From the NCBI RefSeq assembly GCF_000622365.1, contig NZ_JASC01000013.1, forward strand, positions 310,001-374,000: a stretch of 64,000 nucleotides of DNA, read 5' to 3'. The stretch is from Sulfitobacter noctilucae. GTDB taxonomy: Bacteria > Pseudomonadota > Alphaproteobacteria > Rhodobacterales > Rhodobacteraceae. The notes under the pieces were generated by a model. That model saw only the letters and a program-made list of their open reading frames with translations, was not told the origin of the DNA and did no database searches. Each line of letters starts with the position of its first letter. Position 1 is the stretch's first letter. Positions 12,482 through 44,268 of the stretch are shown here, piece after piece. The translations under genes were made by a program, and so were the position numbers.

Positions 12482-14164
12482 ATGTCCGAATATCAGGTCG
12501 AGGGGCCGGAACTTAAAAAACTTATCACGCTGGCCAAGCGCAAACCGCTGGCCTTTGCGTTCAATCCTGCCAAGAACGACGAAGATCATTACTTCGGTAT
12601 GGACCGCAAAAAACCTGCCGATCTGCTGGGTCGTGACGCAAAAAAGAACGGAGAGGGCAGCAAGGTTGCCTTTGGCATGGCCACGGTCGAAGGCAAGCAG
12701 ATGACCCTGACCTGCGAACAGGTGGTTCCGGGCATCGCCAAAAAACTGAAGCGTTATCTCAAGACGCAAAAGCTGACGATGAACATCGAGGTTCTGGACG
12801 CTAACGGCGCGGTGGTCGATTCCGATATCACCGACATTCCGGATGATCCCGATGAAGAGATTACTGACGGGGAAGACATCCCACCCGCCTTTGACCAGAA
12901 GGATCTGATTGCGCGGTTGAACCTTTGCAAACCCAAGGTGCAAGCGGCGCCGGAAAACCTGATCAAGCCACTGAGTAAATTGTTCACAGACACCGCCGGT
13001 TTGATCAAAGCGGGCGACGGTGCGGGCGCTGAGGCGAACCTGCAAAAGCTTGAAGCCGCTTTGGCCAAGATCGCAGCGGCAGCTGAAGGGGCACCAGCCA
13101 CACCGCAACTTGATGCCAAGGCGATACAGGCTGAACTGGTCGCCGTCGGTGGCCGCGTCAAAGCGCTGCCACCCGAACAAGCGGCCAGGCTCGCCAAACC
13201 GATGAAACAGGCGGTCGATTTTTTCAAAGCCGGTGATCTGCCCAAGACTCAAGCCGCGACCGCAAAAATCTCCGCCGTCTGTGACACGTTGGAAGCGGCA
13301 GCACCGCCCAAAGCGGACGGACCCGCCGATCTAGCCAAGCGCGCCAAGACGCTGCGCGACCAGATCGCAGCTTTGCCGGACCCCGCCCAAAGCAAGGCGC
13401 TGATGGCCGAATTTGCCAAGGGCGTCGGACAGATCAAGGCGGGTGACCTGAATGCCGCCACTGCGACCTTTGACCGGGTCGAAGCAGAGGTTGCCGCTGC
13501 ACCTGCCGAAACAAGCGATAACGCGGAGCAGGAATGGGCAGCGCTCTGGTCCAGTCTGGAGCCCCGCGTCACTGCAGAGATCAAACAAGATGGGCCGTTG
13601 TCATCAACACTGAGCGCCAGAAAAATGGCTGCGGAGGAGGCGGTCATTGCGCGCGACTTCGCAAAAGCCCTCAACATCGGCAAACGTCTTGAAGCGATGT
13701 TGGATGAAGCAGCGGAAGCCCGGGTTGGTGCGGATGAAGCCAAGAAACAGCGCGTTAACGCAATCGACTTTTCTAAAGCACGTATCACATGGCGCGACAC
13801 CAAGGCCGCGTTACAGGCCGAGATGAAGACGCTTGCCGATACGATCATCGCAGACCTTAAAGGTGGTGATGTCGAAGGGATCGAAAGCGCCGCGCAAGAG
13901 CTTGCAAGCTATCTCGACCCGATCACCGACACGCTCGAGACCGCGCTGAACAAACTGGCCGAAGCCACGGACCCCGCTGATATCGCCACCCGAAAGCAAA
14001 GCTGCATCGCCATCATCAACGATCTGGAAACCCAGCTGGAACAAGGCATTTTTGCCGAGATCGACGATAACAACGGCTTTGCCAGTGTCAGCGTGCAGAA
14101 AAAAGCGTTGTCCGCCCTGGATGCAGTCGCAGCAGAAATCAACAAGACACCCGAGGCCGCCTGA
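12482..14164 (+). CDS. Unknown protein A with five ~70-residue KAGD helical repeats
   Basis: Soluble 560-aa protein of unrecognised family, with no signal peptide or membrane segment. Residues 1-115 look like a small mixed alpha/beta domain (LKKLITLAKRKPLAFAFNP, KVAFGMATVEGKQMTLTCEQ). An acidic linker (DIPDDPDEEITDGED, 118-132) follows. The rest is helical with five tandem units marked IKAGD (175), FKAGD (248), IKAGD (318), VIARD (388) and LKGGD (459), a 70-73 residue period. Each marker is followed by an Ala-rich helix ending LExxL. ARITWRDT at 433 resembles RVTWREA near the end of protein B. ATG 12482 is chosen because the upstream frame looks non-coding. 140 bp separate it from gene B. Confidence 0.8.
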   Translation: MSEYQVEGPELKKLITLAKRKPLAFAFNPAKNDEDHYFGMDRKKPADLLGRDAKKNGEGSKVAFGMATVEGKQMTLTCEQVVPGIAKKLKRYLKTQKLTMNIEVLDANGAVVDSDITDIPDDPDEEITDGEDIPPAFDQKDLIARLNLCKPKVQAAPENLIKPLSKLFTDTAGLIKAGDGAGAEANLQKLEAALAKIAAAAEGAPATPQLDAKAIQAELVAVGGRVKALPPEQAARLAKPMKQAVDFFKAGDLPKTQAATAKISAVCDTLEAAAPPKADGPADLAKRAKTLRDQIAALPDPAQSKALMAEFAKGVGQIKAGDLNAATATFDRVEAEVAAAPAETSDNAEQEWAALWSSLEPRVTAEIKQDGPLSSTLSARKMAAEEAVIARDFAKALNIGKRLEAMLDEAAEARVGADEAKKQRVNAIDFSKARITWRDTKAALQAEMKTLADTIIADLKGGDVEGIESAAQELASYLDPITDTLETALNKLAEATDPADIATRKQSCIAIINDLETQLEQGIFAEIDDNNGFASVSVQKKALSALDAVAAEINKTPEAA

Positions 14165-14304
14165 TGCCCGCATCAGCGCAGCCCATAGATAAATTCGTAA
14201 CCTGACAAGCCGCAGCATTTTTGCGTGCTGCCGCCACAGATATTTTAACGATTTTTTTCTTTCAGGCCTTCGGGCCCCCATAATTTACTTTGCGGAGCAA
14301 TGCT

Positions 14305-17300
14305 GTGCCCAAGAATTTTGCCGATCTGACATCAACACAACAGAAGTTCCTCAAGAAATACCTGCGCAGCGGCGGGGTGTTCAAGGATACCCGCGAGAAG
14401 AACGAGGCGTTCAACTCTGATTTCGACGCCGCCGTCAGCCCGCTGTTCAAACAGATCAACCGGATCGAACAGACCATCACACAGATGGCTGCGACCGATG
14501 AAACCTTTTCGGAAGAGATCAACCGCACCCGTTTAACCGGGCATCAGGAGGCCCTGAATCAGCGCATCAAAGACAGTGCCAAGATGCTGAAACAGCGCGA
14601 AATTCCTGATTTCGCTGATATCGCGACAAACCTGCAATCGCTGGAAGACATGCTGGCACGACGCCAGCAGCAAGGCGTTGATCGCCGGGACGCAGCGGCA
14701 GAACTTCAGGGCGAAAAGGAAGCCCACGCTGAAGAGGTGCTGCTTGCCTTGGAAGATCACGGTGTCGTTGCGGCGCGTGTGTTTGCCGAAGCCCGCGCCC
14801 TCAAATTGTTGCCGGACGATGTGCGTGCCCGCGAAGCGGCGATTGCCATCTACGAAACAACGCTGCTGGCGGCGCGGACCGACATCAGCGGATTGGTGGA
14901 CAGTCAAGCCGCCGATCCGGGCGTCAAGCCAAACGACTTTGAAGCCAATTGCGCGACCGTCACAGCCGCGTTCGAGCAGGCTGCCAATGTGCAAATCACG
15001 GTCATTGAAGATATCATCGGCAAACCTGCGCCCACGCTGGACGACATTCAGGCGCAGTTGAGCGAAAAGTATGGCGAAACCGATACCGTCAAGGTTGAAG
15101 CAGCCCGTATGGCAGGCATCGCCGCAGAAGCCCAAAAAGTCGAAGCCGCACTGGTCGCCAAAAATGCAGAGCTTGATGCCCTTGCGGCAAAGATGGCCAC
15201 CGCATCCCCCGCCGAGCAAAAGAGGATGCGTGGGGAAAAGGCAGCGCTTTTGGCGTTGATAAATCAAATCAGCATGCGCGACGCTCAATTGACCGCATTT
15301 CAGGAGGCCCAGCCAGAGAGGGAGCGGGTCTTGCTGCTTGTCGCTGGTGAGGCCGAGGAAGCCGAAAAACGCGCTCAGGCTCTTGCGGATGGCGAGGCCG
15401 CGGACTGGCTTGACGTTCATCTGGCACATTTGCTGGAAGGCGCGGTCTATGGGCACCGCACTGATTACGACGCCCCCTCCGAGCTGTTCTCGTTGAGCGA
15501 GATCACAGAGAAAATCGACGCCACCCGTGTGATGTTGGTGGCAGCGTCAGAACGCGATGTCATCATCCCGCGTCTCACCGCAGATGAACCCCGGATGAAA
15601 GAATTATCCGCATCTGAACTGACAACGTTGGAAAAGATGCTCGACGAAGCGATGAATTTTGCCAACGCTGGCCGTACCGACCTCGCCTTTGCGCTGCACG
15701 AAGAAGTGCGGATTTTGCGACAGAAATTTACCAGCGCGCGCAACATACTAAAATTGCCTGCTCCTGCGCCTCCACCTCCCTCTCCGGCGCAAAAGCTGCT
15801 GGATCAGCTGACGGTCATCCTTGGCGAATTGGGCGACCTTTGGGGCCAGGGCGTTGATGATGCGCAAACCATCATCACCGATGCCAAGACGCTTGTTGCG
15901 GCGGTTCAGGCTTCGGAAAAGACGCATGCTTTCGTGGATACACCGGAGCTGCACGCAGCAGAGGTCGACACACTACGCCGGAGAATGGAAGCCTTGGACC
16001 CGCCTCCGGCAGAGACAGCCGCCTTGGCAGAAGCCAAGACAAAAGCGAACGAGAACGCGGCACGGGTCGACGAGTGGCTCGACGTGTTCATGAAAACCAA
16101 GAAAATCACCGACAGCGACATCATTGAAGAACCCGGCAAGACTTACTCCAAATCAGAACGGAAAAAGCTGATCCGGCGCGACGAAATTCTCACTGTTAGC
16201 GATGGGAATGGCGGGTTTGAAAAGCACCGTCTTGTGATGGAGCGCAAGGGCAAAGGCGGGGAGGATCACGCACAACATACCGGGAAGACTGCGAAAAAGA
16301 TCCCTATGGAAGTGCTCCAAGCACTGCATACCCGAAGCGAAACTTTGCGCATGATGGCTGAATCCGGCACCCCCGGCAGTGAAGAGGCGATTGCCCGCTA
16401 CAGCACAGAAACAGAAGAGCTGATGGAGGAAATCGGCAATCAAGGTTTGACGCTCTTCCCCGAGATCGCAGCCATCCTGAAGGACTGTGACAAGATCATC
16501 GAAAAAGGCACAATGGCTGAATTTCTGCCGGACAATCTTGGCGAGGCAAAGAACCGCTATCAAGCGTTCAAGGACAGTTATTTGTCCGAACGTCCCAGCG
16601 TGGCCAAAACCAAGGCTCAAGCCTTCAAGGTCGAGATTGACGCGCTGGAAGTGGCCGCCGAAGCGGTCAGGACAGAGTATAATACGCAGCGCACCGTCTA
16701 TGGTAAGATCATCAAAGATTTGAAGGGTGCCAAGGGCAAATCGCCCGATGCAATTGCGGTCGGCAGGCTGATGGAGGAGATGCTGCAAAGCGATCCTGAT
16801 ACGCTCTTTGCAGGCTCGTCCGATGGTGCCGACGACGCCACCAATAAGAAATTGGTACGGGCGCGCAAACAGTTTGCAGCACTCAAGGAATTCTACACCG
16901 CCAACGCGAAAATCTTTTCCAGCAGAGAGATGACTGGCCCGTGGCTTAACAAGACCGAAACAGCCTACAAAAAGCTGTCCTCGAAAGTCGGGACAAACGT
17001 AAATGATGCCAAGGATGAGCTCGCCGCCATCAAAGCGGAGATGCTGGCATTCTATACCAAGATGAAGAATATCAAGACGGCCACTGGTTCTGACCTTGCG
17101 GACAAATTGATAGAGCTTTTCGAAACACTGAAAGAAAGCGCGGTGACCGCCTACAACGACCATGAGGCACGCCGGCTTTATCTGGTAAAGAACAGAGAGC
17201 TGAAGGACGCGATCAAAGAACAGCAAAGACTGGTTGGCAAGAAAGGCAAGAACGCGATTGCACAACAACTGGCGTCAGACCTTGATGCACTGGCGACCCG

Positions 17301-17892
17301 TCGCAAGGGAACCAAGTCCAAATCAGATGCCGACGAAGACTACAGTTCCGCTATGCGTGATTTCGAAGAGATCGAGCGCGAATTGGAGACGCTGACCGAG
17401 AAGGTTACAGAAGCTGCGAGCGGGAAGCGGGTGAAGCCCAAGAACATCAAGATTACCGACAAGCTGCCGGTGCTTGAGAATTTCCTTGAACGGATGAAAA
17501 CCACCGCAACCGGGCTGGCAGAAACGACGATCCGGCCCAAGCTGGATACAGATGATGCGAAAACGGAATACAATCCGAAGATCGACATCATCAAGGCTGA
17601 TCTGGCGCGCGTTTCTTCGGTTTACGATGTGGGTCCATTGAAAAGACTGGCAACAGACATCGACGCCGACAACGCCTCTGAAACGCCGGACAAGCAAAAG
17701 CGCGTCACCTGGCGCGAGGCAGCACTTAGCGAGGTGCGCAAGCTGCGCACTGCGCTTGAGATGGACCCCGCAACGCAGATCTACGCCAAGAACCCCTTCG
17801 ATCTCGGCACCGATCTAAGCCTGGTGCGGACCGCCCTGCATCAGGTCGAAGTGGCCGTGCTGGTCAGTGTTGACCCCAAAGAACAAGCATAA
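14305..17892 (+). CDS. Unknown protein B, large coiled-coil/helical
   Basis: A 1195-aa, charged, almost entirely helical protein of unrecognised family, without signal peptide or membrane segments. The GTG at 14305 has GGAG 8 bp upstream and gives MPKNFADLTSTQQKFLKKY; a TTG at 14290 is less likely. Long heptad-like stretches rich in Glu, Lys and Ala are broken near residues 487-499 by a proline run (PAPAPPPPSPAQ), probably a hinge. Around residues 441-472 a segment (LDEAMNFANAGRTDLAFAL) resembles the KAGD repeat of protein A. The C-terminus has RVTWREA (1133) followed by NPFDLGTDLSLVRTALHQVE. Gene C starts 12 bp downstream, so B and C are surely co-transcribed. Confidence 0.8.
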   Translation: MPKNFADLTSTQQKFLKKYLRSGGVFKDTREKNEAFNSDFDAAVSPLFKQINRIEQTITQMAATDETFSEEINRTRLTGHQEALNQRIKDSAKMLKQREIPDFADIATNLQSLEDMLARRQQQGVDRRDAAAELQGEKEAHAEEVLLALEDHGVVAARVFAEARALKLLPDDVRAREAAIAIYETTLLAARTDISGLVDSQAADPGVKPNDFEANCATVTAAFEQAANVQITVIEDIIGKPAPTLDDIQAQLSEKYGETDTVKVEAARMAGIAAEAQKVEAALVAKNAELDALAAKMATASPAEQKRMRGEKAALLALINQISMRDAQLTAFQEAQPERERVLLLVAGEAEEAEKRAQALADGEAADWLDVHLAHLLEGAVYGHRTDYDAPSELFSLSEITEKIDATRVMLVAASERDVIIPRLTADEPRMKELSASELTTLEKMLDEAMNFANAGRTDLAFALHEEVRILRQKFTSARNILKLPAPAPPPPSPAQKLLDQLTVILGELGDLWGQGVDDAQTIITDAKTLVAAVQASEKTHAFVDTPELHAAEVDTLRRRMEALDPPPAETAALAEAKTKANENAARVDEWLDVFMKTKKITDSDIIEEPGKTYSKSERKKLIRRDEILTVSDGNGGFEKHRLVMERKGKGGEDHAQHTGKTAKKIPMEVLQALHTRSETLRMMAESGTPGSEEAIARYSTETEELMEEIGNQGLTLFPEIAAILKDCDKIIEKGTMAEFLPDNLGEAKNRYQAFKDSYLSERPSVAKTKAQAFKVEIDALEVAAEAVRTEYNTQRTVYGKIIKDLKGAKGKSPDAIAVGRLMEEMLQSDPDTLFAGSSDGADDATNKKLVRARKQFAALKEFYTANAKIFSSREMTGPWLNKTETAYKKLSSKVGTNVNDAKDELAAIKAEMLAFYTKMKNIKTATGSDLADKLIELFETLKESAVTAYNDHEARRLYLVKNRELKDAIKEQQRLVGKKGKNAIAQQLASDLDALATRRKGTKSKSDADEDYSSAMRDFEEIERELETLTEKVTEAASGKRVKPKNIKITDKLPVLENFLERMKTTATGLAETTIRPKLDTDDAKTEYNPKIDIIKADLARVSSVYDVGPLKRLATDIDADNASETPDKQKRVTWREAALSEVRKLRTALEMDPATQIYAKNPFDLGTDLSLVRTALHQVEVAVLVSVDPKEQA

Positions 17893-17904
17893 GGAACGCG
17901 ACCC

Positions 17905-20900
17905 ATGGCATTGAGCGAATACGAAGCAGATTGGATCGTCAAAACATCGAATGCCCCTCTGGCGGACCCGGAAGTGGACGCGGACGGCAATCCGGTCACG
18001 GCCTTCACCAAACGCGAGGCGCGACTTGAGTTTTTTCTCGGCCCCGAATCCGATCTGGCCGTCGGCAAGGCGGATATTCTGGCTGCTCAGGACTTCACTC
18101 TGGACACACGCCAGCAAGCGAACCTTTGGGACAAGATCATGCGCCGGCCAGAGGGCAAGCTGCTCTCTATGAAATGGAAAGCCGACGATAGCGATCTGCC
18201 CTATTTCGGCCATGACATGCGCGCGGATCACGAGGTGGATACCATTGCCGACGTGGGTCAGGACAACGTCGAAGTGCCCGAGGAGACGCTGAATGCGCTG
18301 ACCGCAGCCTTTGACCGGCTGATGGGGCTGTCCTACCAGATGGCGAACGAGTTGGACGATACCGGCAACCGTATGTTCAAGGACGAGGACATCCGCCGCG
18401 AGCTTTGGGCACCCTTGGTCCGCGAAGGCACCATTCCCGAAAACCTCGTGCCGCAGAAATTCTCCGAACAGGCGATTGCTTTCAAAGGTGCCGCGGAGGT
18501 TTATCAGGACAGGATCGACGATTACTCCAAGAACTCTCACGGCAAAGAAGACTTGCTGCGCGGGCTTGGCATCGCGGGCGATACCCTGAGTGTCGTCAAC
18601 ACCATCGTCGGCAGCAGTGTCACCATCGGCAATGCTGACAAAATGGCTGATCTGAACAAATCCATTGACGATGGCACCAAACTTGACGGCTCAGCGGCAT
18701 CAGCAGCCGATACTAAGGCGCTCAAGCTAGAGCGGGCGCAATTGCAGCAACAGGAAGCATTTGTGAAGTTTGGGGGCACCGTTCTGACCGGTGGTTTTGG
18801 ATTGGTCAAATCTGGCGTTGAAGAAAATGCCAGGGGCGAAGAAGCGAACTGGGCCAAATTCGCTGACCAATCCATTAAGGTGCTTACCTCTGTTGTCGCG
18901 GCCGGGATCGGACCGATCGCTACAGAGATCGTCGGCGTATCGGATTCGATGAACACCGATGAGGGCGAGGCCAAGATGCGCACCGCTGATGCGATTAAAG
19001 CCGGTGTTTTGGGCGGATTGTCCGCCTGCCGTATGGTGCCGACCCTCGTGACCGTCATTAAGGCCAAGCCAGGCGACCGCCGCAAGATCGTCGATCAGAT
19101 GATCGAGCAATTCGCCGATGCGGTGCAGCTGGCCATCCAATCCGCCGCAGCGCTTGAGACTGACAATTCCCGCAAGGCCGATATGATCATGGTGGGCGCC
19201 AGCGTCCGTACGCTGATCCTGCTGACCGGTAAATCGGAACGCGCGATTGAGTTGATGATCGAAGGCAAGCCCAATCAGGCAGCGTTGCTTTTGGGGGGGG
19301 CGTTGTTCATGGACGGCGCCGCCGCTGTGTCCGGCCTGATCGCTGATGGTGTGCGCAAGGATGTTACGGCAGAGGAATACAAGAATGCCTCGCCCGAAGA
19401 GCGGCTTTATATGGAAAGCGTGGGCGATCCAAACGCCAGCGCCGAAGATCAAGCAAAAGCGCTTGCGGATGCCAAGAAAGCCCGCGCCGATGCAATGGCC
19501 GCCCTGCAAGCGGCCGTCGACAGCAATGTGGCCTCTGTCAGCGAAGACCTGCTAAAACAGATGGAAGACAGTGAGCCGCCTGTCATCGATCCTGCGCAGG
19601 AAGAATTTGCCAAGAGAATGCAGGCGCAAATTAATGAGGCGCAGCAGGCCAAAGCCGCCGCCGAATTGGAAGAGCAGTTTGGCGACCCCGAAGCCGTCGC
19701 CGCGATGTTTGCGCAATTCGATCACGACATGGGCGAATACGGTGAGCTTTACGAACAGGCCACGCCCGAAGCCGCCATGGAAGGCGAACCCGACCAGATC
19801 GCCGAGAACCTCAAGGCTATTGATCGTGCCATCGCCAATACGTCCGCCCTGCGAACGCGGGCCGAGTTGATTAACGGCGTTTCTTCCGGTGCTGCCGCAA
19901 TCACCGCGTCCTTTGTGCCCGGTGCCGGTGCGGTGGTCGCCGCACAAGCCGTCGCATTTGACATCTATTGCGTCAGCAAAGCGGTCACCATGCACAACAA
20001 ATGGGTCGATAGCATGGAAGTCGCCTTTCGCGCCGGATCGGCTTACAGCCCCGCGATTGAGAAAACGCTGACCAACGCGCGGATCACCCTCAGCCACAAG
20101 AGCGTCAAGCTGATCCTCGACAGTGTGAAACTGGGCAATGAAATCGCCAAGTGTTTCGATATCACCGGCACCACCACGATCATCGGCGCGTCGCTTACGA
20201 TGACTTCTGCGCTGGTCGACTACGGCTATAAGATGAACAAGGAAGTCGAGATCACCAATGGCTGGAATGCCTACAAAAAGGCACGCAGCAATCCAGCGAA
20301 CCGTAAAGCAGCCCGGGCAGCGCTGCGGTTGAATTCGACGTTGGCGAAATGTTGTATCGCCTATGGGGCCTGTATGGAGAAAGACCCCTCTGCCATCGAA
20401 GCGATTCGCATTTCCGGCCTTTCCCCATCTGTATTGGCCGACGACAAGGACGTTTGCAAAAAGCTGGTGAACTATCTTGAAAACGAGATGAATGAGGACC
20501 CCGTTGTGATGCATGTTGAGCGGCAACCCAAGAAGTGGCAGCCGGGAAGGCCTGAACTGACCTCCGCCTCTTGGTTCGAGACCAAAACCGCCGCTGTGAT
20601 GTCAGCCGAGCCGCGTCTTGATCCCGCTTCGGCCAAGACACCGGGCATGGACCGCCTGATGGCCCAATTGGATGCGGCATGGGAGGGAGAAAAGAACTAC
20701 AAGGCATGGCGCGTGGCCAAAGCCCCTGCGCCCGACGATATCGAGAAGCGGCGCACCTGCGCGAACACCACAATCTCACTTCTCAATAGCGTGATCTCGC
20801 AAATGGAGGCCTATGCGCCCGTAGAAGCGGGCAAATCCGACCGGCACGACGAAATGTCTGATATCGCACAGACGTTCCGCGCATTGGCCATTCTGAACCT

Positions 20901-21000
20901 GCCCCAGGCAGAGGCCGATTCTGCCGCCGCGCCGATCGTTGCGGTGCAACAGAACGACACCGATGACGATAGCGATGAGGACAGTGACGATGATGCATGA
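17905..21000 (+). CDS. Unknown protein C with hydrophobic Gly/Ala segments and acidic tail
   Basis: A 1031-aa protein of unrecognised family; AAGGAA precedes the ATG. No signal peptide. The first 200 residues are soluble (ALSEYEADWIVKTSN). Glycine/alanine-rich hydrophobic stretches follow near 221-245 (TLSVVNTIVGSSVTIGN), 328-350 (VLTSVVAAGIGPIATEIVG), 460-483 (LLLGGALFMDGAAAVSGLIA), 658-694 (AAITASFVPGAGAVVAAQAV) and 753-777 (TTTIIGASLTMTSALV), separated by charged helices. This is like proteins that insert into membranes conditionally. The tail is highly acidic (NDTDDDSDEDSDDDA). It contains an eight-G run at 19293-19300 in frame. Last gene of the cluster; tRNA-Lys lies 120 bp beyond on the other strand. 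Confidence 0.8.
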   Translation: MALSEYEADWIVKTSNAPLADPEVDADGNPVTAFTKREARLEFFLGPESDLAVGKADILAAQDFTLDTRQQANLWDKIMRRPEGKLLSMKWKADDSDLPYFGHDMRADHEVDTIADVGQDNVEVPEETLNALTAAFDRLMGLSYQMANELDDTGNRMFKDEDIRRELWAPLVREGTIPENLVPQKFSEQAIAFKGAAEVYQDRIDDYSKNSHGKEDLLRGLGIAGDTLSVVNTIVGSSVTIGNADKMADLNKSIDDGTKLDGSAASAADTKALKLERAQLQQQEAFVKFGGTVLTGGFGLVKSGVEENARGEEANWAKFADQSIKVLTSVVAAGIGPIATEIVGVSDSMNTDEGEAKMRTADAIKAGVLGGLSACRMVPTLVTVIKAKPGDRRKIVDQMIEQFADAVQLAIQSAAALETDNSRKADMIMVGASVRTLILLTGKSERAIELMIEGKPNQAALLLGGALFMDGAAAVSGLIADGVRKDVTAEEYKNASPEERLYMESVGDPNASAEDQAKALADAKKARADAMAALQAAVDSNVASVSEDLLKQMEDSEPPVIDPAQEEFAKRMQAQINEAQQAKAAAELEEQFGDPEAVAAMFAQFDHDMGEYGELYEQATPEAAMEGEPDQIAENLKAIDRAIANTSALRTRAELINGVSSGAAAITASFVPGAGAVVAAQAVAFDIYCVSKAVTMHNKWVDSMEVAFRAGSAYSPAIEKTLTNARITLSHKSVKLILDSVKLGNEIAKCFDITGTTTIIGASLTMTSALVDYGYKMNKEVEITNGWNAYKKARSNPANRKAARAALRLNSTLAKCCIAYGACMEKDPSAIEAIRISGLSPSVLADDKDVCKKLVNYLENEMNEDPVVMHVERQPKKWQPGRPELTSASWFETKTAAVMSAEPRLDPASAKTPGMDRLMAQLDAAWEGEKNYKAWRVAKAPAPDDIEKRRTCANTTISLLNSVISQMEAYAPVEAGKSDRHDEMSDIAQTFRALAILNLPQAEADSAAAPIVAVQQNDTDDDSDEDSDDDA

Positions 21001-21120: not shown

Positions 21121-21196
21121 TGGTGAGCCGTGTTGGGTTCGAACCAACGACCTACTGATTAAAAGTCAGTTGCTCTACCAACTGAGCTAACGGCCC
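21121..21196 (-). tRNA. tRNA-Lys (anticodon TTT)
   Basis: On the minus strand a full cloverleaf can be drawn. Acceptor stem GGGCCGT/ACGGCTC, D-arm GCTCAGTTGGTAGAGC, anticodon stem ACTGA/TCAGT around loop CTTTTAA (anticodon TTT, Lys), T-arm with GGTTCGAACC, discriminator A and an encoded CCA. 76 nt including CCA. Its 3' end faces the unknown three-gene cluster. Confidence 0.97.
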
Positions 21197-43415: not shown

Positions 43416-44195
43416 TTACTTCTGTTGGGCCAATAGCTTGTCCAACCTTTGTTCGATTGCCATCAGCCGCGCCGACACTTCATCACGGTACACACCCGTT
43501 TCGGCGTTGCTTTCCTCTGAATGGGCGTCCTGCATCGAGTTCACGATCAGACCCACAAGCAGGTTCACCACGGCAAAGGTGGTGACCATAATGAATGGAA
43601 TGAAAAATCCCCAGGCGTAGGGATAAGTCTCCATCACGGGGCGCACGATGCCCATCGACCAGCTTTCCAGCGTCATGATCTGGAATAGCGAATAGCCTGA
43701 ACGCCCCAGCGTGCCGAACCAATCCGGGAAGGCCGTGCCGAAGAGCTTGGTCGCAATAACCGCACCGATATAGAAAATCAGCGCCATCAGCGAAAAGACC
43801 GAAGCCATGCCGGGCAGCGCGCTGATGAACCCCTCAACCACCCGACGCAAACGCGGCGCGGTCGAGACCAAACGCAGCACCCGCAGGATACGCAGGGACC
43901 GTAATGCCGACAGACTGTTGCCAGCGGGCACAAGTGCCACGGCAACAACAAGCAGATCGAATATATTCCACCCTTCGCGAAAGAAATGCATCCGGTAGAC
44001 GAAAATCTTGATCAGCAGTTCCGCAACAAAGATCGCCAGACAGATTTTGTCGAGAAACAGCAACGCCGGCCCGACAACCGCCATCACCGAGGGAGAGGTT
44101 TCAAGCCCCAGAAGGACTGCGTTAAAAATGATAACGCTCATGATGAACCAACCAAAAGCTGGCGATTCCACAAGAGTCTTCAATGTGTTGCGCAT
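43416..44195 (-). CDS. Voltage-gated sodium channel (BacNav/NaChBac type)
   Basis: Single-domain six-helix channel that assembles as a tetramer, 259 aa. S4 voltage sensor LRSLRILRVLRLVSTAPRLRR with Arg every third residue; pore filter TLESWSMG, the sodium-selective signature; S6 FFIPFIMVTTFAVVNLLVGL; then a C-terminal coiled coil (SARLMAIEQRLDKLLAQQ). ATG 44195 is chosen; a GTG at 44216 is possible. Confidence 0.93.
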   Translation of the reverse strand: MRNTLKTLVESPAFGWFIMSVIIFNAVLLGLETSPSVMAVVGPALLFLDKICLAIFVAELLIKIFVYRMHFFREGWNIFDLLVVAVALVPAGNSLSALRSLRILRVLRLVSTAPRLRRVVEGFISALPGMASVFSLMALIFYIGAVIATKLFGTAFPDWFGTLGRSGYSLFQIMTLESWSMGIVRPVMETYPYAWGFFIPFIMVTTFAVVNLLVGLIVNSMQDAHSEESNAETGVYRDEVSARLMAIEQRLDKLLAQQK

Positions 44196-44268
44196 GGAAT
44201 GGGTTCGCTCTTTCACGCTTGTTTGGCGTCTATATGCGGTGCGCCGGAAGCAAGGACAAGCGGGCCTC

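Follow-up and report, generated by a model that had tools for sequence, protein, structure and literature searches.

Among the delivery domains described for type VI secretion systems (T6SSs), RIX offers the closest parallel to the genes that we describe here. In the sections of the RIX report drawn on (PMC10435454), the domain spans about 55 residues, is arginine-rich with two predicted helices, and has been reported from Vibrionaceae and Moritellaceae only. Experiments there showed an operon that starts with a secreted adaptor bearing the marker, and no adjacent immunity gene is reported there for anti-eukaryotic RIX effectors. WHIX, as presented in the part of its report used here (PMC12135965), is a split secretion domain (in the protein studied, one part has about 150 residues and the other about 200) with a deep cavity that binds the VgrG tail. 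Roseobacters have a T6SS of their own type, whose TssCL, a long fusion of VipA and VipB, occurs alongside normal tssB and tssC (PMC9515649). We analysed three adjacent genes, A, B and C, in a stretch of 64,000 nucleotides of Sulfitobacter noctilucae (NCBI RefSeq assembly GCF_000622365.1, contig NZ_JASC01000013.1, positions 310,001 to 374,000; hereafter the window). We propose, with a probability of about 0.68, that this trio serves the roseobacter-type T6SS as an auxiliary cargo module, in which A would be a secreted adaptor and B and C its cargo.

How does this locus compare with the described systems? Like RIX (PMC10435454, in the sections considered), the N-terminal domain of A (the N-domain) would be a marker on polymorphic toxins, toxin-less proteins that bear it head operons in which the next gene would be the cargo, and the genomes that encode it nearly always have a T6SS. 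Unlike RIX, the N-domain is about 115 residues long, alpha/beta and richer in lysine than in arginine, and so falls outside the description of RIX. Its genes lie beside tssA in 9 genomes, whereas RIX is reported outside T6SS clusters in those sections (PMC10435454), and, unlike in the RIX operon, two large genes follow A and no immunity gene is evident. With FIX, and with MIX and WHIX as presented in the portions of PMC5666596 and PMC12135965 used here, it would share the character of a modular T6SS delivery domain on polymorphic effectors; it is set apart from WHIX by description only. The machine that co-occurs with A-B-C is the TssCL-type roseobacter T6SS. The sections of PMC9515649 used here name no N-domain-like effector domain for TssCL-type systems and state that, as of 2022, the T6SSs of the roseobacter reference genomes examined there were all without a described function. 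Among the open-licence papers listed in searches on T6SSs with ExbB/ExbD, effectors of roseobacters and Rhodobacterales, TssCL, marker domains and the Pseudovibrio T6SS, no title or abstract opening describes the N-domain or the trio. The best reading is that A-B-C would be analogous to the vibrio RIX adaptors, but with unrelated parts. If true, this suggests that the logic of a marker plus a secreted adaptor arose with different parts in another bacterial class.

Co-occurrence of the trio with a type VI secretion system

To characterize the trio, we computed its gene structure, the conservation of its gene order and its co-occurrence with T6SSs. The initial annotation had described three collinear open reading frames (ORFs) on one strand, without a recognised family and with 12 base pairs (bp) between B and C. 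The coordinates bear out this layout, with a gap of 140 bp between A and B, and searches of Pfam, NCBIfam, PADLOC and PHROGs returned no credible match for any of the three. The lowest E-value across these library searches was 0.00066, for A against NCBIfam LegK1 (18 bits for a cut-off of 550).

Of the 198 genomes sampled from the window's family, 10 have gene C; in a class sample of 385 genomes, only the window's own genome has it. A scan of species genomes with an alignment of C found 47 loci in 45 genomes, a set that partly overlaps the family sample (for example, L142 and G077). The titles of these records include Sulfitobacter, Phaeobacter, Leisingera, Ruegeria, Tateyamaria, Pseudovibrio, Limibaculum, Rhodospirillales and Azospirillaceae, and one is a metagenome record titled Singulisphaera. 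B adjoins C in 45 of the 47 loci, the exceptions being L154, which lacks B, and L155, which is broken. Within 700 bp upstream of B, 24 loci have a gene with both the N-domain and the C-terminal module of A and 6 have the module alone (two of them cut by a contig end), so that A or its module precedes B in 30 of 47. Related frames thus recur in the same order, which is not expected by chance; they do not fall into separate known families, and the grouping proposed in the initial annotation holds. Given the conserved order and a shared module, the three proteins may plausibly assemble into a single complex. Four Pseudovibrio loci (L144, L145, L147 and L152) have two tandem C genes after B.

The sheath protein VipB was found in 45 of the 198 family genomes, and a second, divergent VipB, which we read as TssCL, in 19 of them. 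By our own choice, the TssCL call is a second VipB match that scores low (142 to 167 bits) and whose frame has 601 to 1781 residues; outside the window's own genome it uses VipB score and frame length only, and in the own genome Pfam confirms the VipA part of the long sheath protein. All 10 genomes of the family sample with C have both VipB types. Fisher p-values for the co-occurrence of C in the 198 genomes are 1.6e-7 with VipB and 4.6e-12 with TssCL, uncorrected and overstated because the genomes are phylogenetically non-independent. Likewise, VipB is found in 45 of the 45 genomes behind the 47 C loci and the second VipB in 43 of them.

The initial annotation had noted the absence of VgrG, Hcp, sheath and baseplate genes from the window. 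No T6SS gene was found there, and the apparatus is located elsewhere in the genome, where a reader of the window could not see it: VipB matches lie on contigs C5 and C2, and the window is on C13. Contig C5 encodes TssH and VgrG; it matches NCBIfam models for TssK, TssL, TssM, TssF, TssG, FHA, TagF and a phosphatase, with Hcp below threshold, and Pfam models for VipA, ImpE and ImpA_N. When the proteins of this contig were compared with the ORFs of the window (E 1e-8), they matched only ABC-transporter-type proteins, an ion-channel paralogue and gene A. In other genomes B and C are found inside some T6SS clusters. They immediately follow a tssM homologue in four Pseudovibrio loci (L144, L147, L152 and L153; in L154 C alone does) and lie two genes downstream of tssM in L159 and L174. 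In L167 the whole trio is near ExbB/ExbD genes and tssA-tssB-tssC.

The N-domain and the shared parts of the trio

The AlphaFold2 model of the N-domain (117 residues) is a confident alpha/beta fold of three helices and six strands (mean predicted local distance difference test score, pLDDT, 90.5), for which no clear match was found in the PDB. Arginine makes up 4.6% and lysine 13.3% of 36 distinct sequences. MIX has the central motif hRxGhhYhh and several clans exist; in this form the motif occurs in 0 of the 36.

The N-domain was found in 18 of the 198 family genomes, with 1 to 14 matches each. In fact, 17 of these 18 have TssCL (p 2e-21), and none of the 26 genomes with VipB but without TssCL has the domain. 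The class sample adds a single genome, G237, to the window's own, and all occurrences are in Alphaproteobacteria apart from weak matches in one metagenome record titled Singulisphaera. Six matches fall in the own genome, one of them on an A-like protein of 503 residues beside tssA; an N-domain gene lies within 3 kilobases of vipB and beside tssA in 9 of the 18 genomes. The domain sits near the start of ORFs of 114 to 1928 residues, and all eight of its plasmid matches are annotated as 'hypothetical protein'.

What are these proteins? The 51 N-domain ORF sequences comprise 21 with the C-terminal module of A, 4 that stand alone (150 residues or fewer) and 26 others; four of these 26 are cut versions of longer sequences, which leaves 47 distinct. 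Among 13 long N-domain proteins searched against Pfam, the end of one matches a nonspecific endonuclease (E 2.9e-13) and that of another VanY, a D-Ala-D-Ala peptidase (E 1.8e-5, right at the cut-off), while the remaining 11 have no Pfam match above cut-off. Among these 11, L112, L113 and L114 share a metallopeptidase-like end with the motif HExxH, and L116, L119 and L120 share another end, with a downstream gene of 145 to 150 residues. Two long N-domain 'hypothetical proteins' on Leisingera plasmids also end in HExxH, and a CpXC gene lies directly downstream of the N-domain proteins with this end in 5 of 5 cases. A thus begins with a domain that is common to diverse toxin ends (endonuclease, VanY and HExxH), and we infer that it mediates delivery.

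In several genomes the N-domain stands on one protein and the candidate cargo follows as another. In G026 and G175, an adaptor with N-domain and module is followed by a kinase-domain protein (E 1.2e-23 and 2.4e-25); in G137, a protein that has two N-domains but lacks the module precedes one with a CdiA_C end (E 1.2e-7). G237 has an adaptor with two N-domains plus the module, and behind it come an HExxH protein of 1079 residues and then CpXC. The relatives of this HExxH protein, L112 to L114, carry the N-domain themselves, so that fusion and separate adaptor look interchangeable. No N-domain was detected in the HExxH protein of the own T6SS contig, whose cluster includes an A-like protein. The trio is no isolated oddity: its parts are common to other likely cargo proteins, mostly annotated as unknown. 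If the N-domain is a cargo marker, it provides a sequence handle on proteins now called 'hypothetical protein', and what roseobacters inject, and into whom, becomes directly testable.

The initial annotation spoke of 'shared sequence elements', which it was unable to show. They exist in two forms, a C-terminal module in A and B and an N-terminal motif in C and some B, both of which we computed. By hhalign, the A and B families are related over roughly their last 130 residues (probability 96.2%, E 2.1e-9). The motif, sought within the first 45 residues, was defined loosely as [LMFYI][STDNE]xx[QEA]xx[WF][LIVM] and strictly as L[STDN]xxQxx[WF][LIV]. Among the 51 C proteins, 44 have the loose form and 18 the strict one; the corresponding counts are 19 and 16 for 46 B proteins, 2 and 2 for the two kinase proteins, 0 and 0 for 27 N-domain proteins, and 7 and 3 for 521 other genes. 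These counts are descriptive and no independent test, because the motif was derived from these same sequences. Both B and C of the window bear it. Applied to four more proteins, the pattern gave one match, in a protein of 684 residues that follows an A-type adaptor in G237; by eye, the own HExxH protein has the motif after its likely methionine, the HExxH protein of G237 has a near match, and a protein of 647 residues has none.

As the initial annotation had noticed, hydrophobic segments distinguish C from its partners. Above a hydropathy of 1.6, C has two and A and B none (one segment of B reaches 1.42); at a laxer 1.2, C has six. In the most conserved region (residues 662-680), the mean over a 19-residue window is at least 1.5 in 25 of 38 aligned C proteins. 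These hydrophobic helices are the sole reason to think that C may be active at membranes.

A possible route of delivery and its rivals

The co-occurrence with T6SSs, the N-domain on proteins with toxin-like ends and the position of B and C inside some T6SS clusters lead us to favour an injected cargo, and give good support to the 'injected assembly' of the initial annotation. Secretion, binding between the parts, toxicity and target are what we infer beyond these data, and we envision them as follows. The N-domain of A would be the ticket recognised by the T6SS apparatus, through which A is loaded, and the helical middle and C-terminal module of A would hold its partners. A could thereby take B and C along via the common module and perhaps via the N-terminal helix: the short helix that opens most C and some B proteins, and the kinase partners too, would be a possible docking piece. 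C would be the likeliest active part, acting with its hydrophobic helices at or across the membrane of the target cell, and B a likely carrier or linker. The target is possibly eukaryotic, given that no consistent linked immunity gene was seen.

Several observations weigh against this scheme, besides the limits given above for the TssCL call, the p-values and the motif counts. B has no neighbouring A or module in 16 of the 47 loci (one more locus lacks B). Of nine genomes tested without A or module beside B, eight have an N-domain elsewhere and G587 has none; G588 has the module but no N-domain before B, and none elsewhere either. Altogether, 13 of the 15 genomes tested have an N-domain somewhere. 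Exceptions to the pairing with the machine also exist. G589 and G605 have C and a single VipB, G122 and G188 have TssCL and no N-domain, and G237, from another family, has N-domains and one VipB but no second. G027 has an N-domain protein and no VipB; this gene may be an orphan cargo gene, or the T6SS was missed or lost. Within the trio, 27 of 46 B proteins lack even the loose motif, profile comparison of the N-termini of B and C is weak (probability 57.5%, 13 columns), and the model of C, mostly helical, is of moderate quality (pLDDT 72; predicted template modelling score 0.59). Finally, Pfam, NCBIfam, PHROGs and PADLOC identify neither a toxin nor an enzyme domain in the trio, and inspection by eye of the fetched loci revealed no consistent gene downstream of C that could be an immunity candidate. 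An adaptor module needs no toxin domain, and a new toxin would likewise go unmatched; the missing immunity gene fits an anti-eukaryotic payload and also a non-toxic accessory role.

Such a role is the core of one alternative, in which A, B and C are non-secreted accessories that help to assemble, anchor or regulate the T6SS machine, and the N-domain serves for docking and is also used by some effectors. In favour of this alternative, 9 genomes encode an A-like protein or one with the N-domain only next to tssA, B-C comes right behind a tssM homologue in four Pseudovibrio loci, and neither a toxin domain nor a consistent immunity gene was seen. We nevertheless consider it unlikely: kinase-domain and HExxH proteins also follow adaptors of this type, and the trio is not a core structural part, because 9 of the 19 TssCL genomes of the family sample lack C. 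Could the trio act without the T6SS at all? Tripartite alpha-helical pore-forming toxins typically have a ClyA-like fold, and a membrane-active toxin of three parts that leaves the cell by a different pathway, for example type I secretion, would agree with the mostly helical model of C and its hydrophobic helices. Annotated type I secretion genes lie directly upstream of A in Qingshengfaniella, the one locus searched for them. With VipB in 45 of 45 C genomes and the N-domain of A common to proteins encoded beside tssA, we hold this route to be very improbable. We give as little credence to an unrelated cytoplasmic complex, for example in defence or chromosome organisation, that co-travels with T6SSs on plasmids or islands: its appeal lies in the patchy distribution, one plasmid record with C and the tRNA border, but PADLOC gave no credible match and both the N-domain and the C-terminal module of A recur in proteins encoded beside tssA.

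The secreted-cargo reading can be extended, more tentatively, to a general scheme, which we would put at somewhat less than an even chance. Alphaproteobacterial T6SSs would use a two-tier cargo code, in which a cargo carries its own N-domain or else presents an L-T-x-x-Q-x-x-W-L helix to a dedicated adaptor. A-B-C would then be the largest module seen here, with a two-protein payload of about 2200 residues that is possibly anti-eukaryotic.

Features and surroundings of the locus

Features of the trio and its border, in coordinates of the window
Feature	Position	Strand	Basis or remark
Gene A, putative secreted T6SS adaptor (N-domain, helical middle, C-terminal module), 560 residues	12482..14164	+	ATG start
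N-domain of A, residues 1-115	12482..12826	+	Alignments, genome search, positions, AlphaFold2 model
C-terminal module of A	13739..14143	+	Common to the resident adaptor beside tssA; distantly to B
Gene B, large putative cargo or carrier protein, 1195 residues	14305..17892	+	GTG start
N-terminal motif of B, L-T-x-x-Q-x-x-F-L	14326..14352	+	Loose motif in 19/46 B proteins
C-terminal part of B related to the module of A, limits approximate	17473..17889	+	B versus A family profiles
Gene C, putative effector with hydrophobic segments, mostly helical (model), 1031 residues	17905..21000	+	ATG start
N-terminal motif of C, loose form	17911..17937	+	Loose motif in 44/51 C proteins
Hydrophobic segment of C, residues 326-344	18880..18936	+	Hydropathy
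Hydrophobic segment of C, residues 461-479	19285..19341	+	Hydropathy
Hydrophobic segment of C, residues 662-680, most conserved	19888..19944	+	Hydropathy at the laxer 1.2
tRNA-Lys, border of the cluster	21121..21196	-	Beside dapF in 5/5 C-less relatives, other flank differing

In 5 of 5 C-less relatives inspected, tRNA-Lys, dapF and the next gene are kept together and the opposite flank varies, which places the trio at a variable tRNA border. A homologue of C lies on one plasmid record, that of Qingshengfaniella alkalisoli (L207:14171-17239). It is annotated there as a VapC family toxin, which is doubtful because its size exceeds 1000 residues. The N-domain protein of G027, the genome without a VipB match, is at L113:853-6510 and has an HExxH end and a CpXC neighbour.

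On the own T6SS contig C5, the long sheath gene runs off both ends in matching frame (L066:2-1672 and L068:16852-19998), which suggests that C5 may be a circular replicon of about 95 kilobases. Another VipB of the own genome, at contig C2:194252-195163, probably marks a second T6SS. Near tssA, both on C5 (L066:15051-18367) and in L069, L075, L080 and L167, an ExbB-ExbD-ExbD module occurs together with a DUF4384 protein and another of 148 residues; the module is possibly a proton-driven accessory of this T6SS. In the window, an ORF on the minus strand (43416-44216) shares 55% identity with the ion-channel-like protein encoded in the own T6SS cluster.

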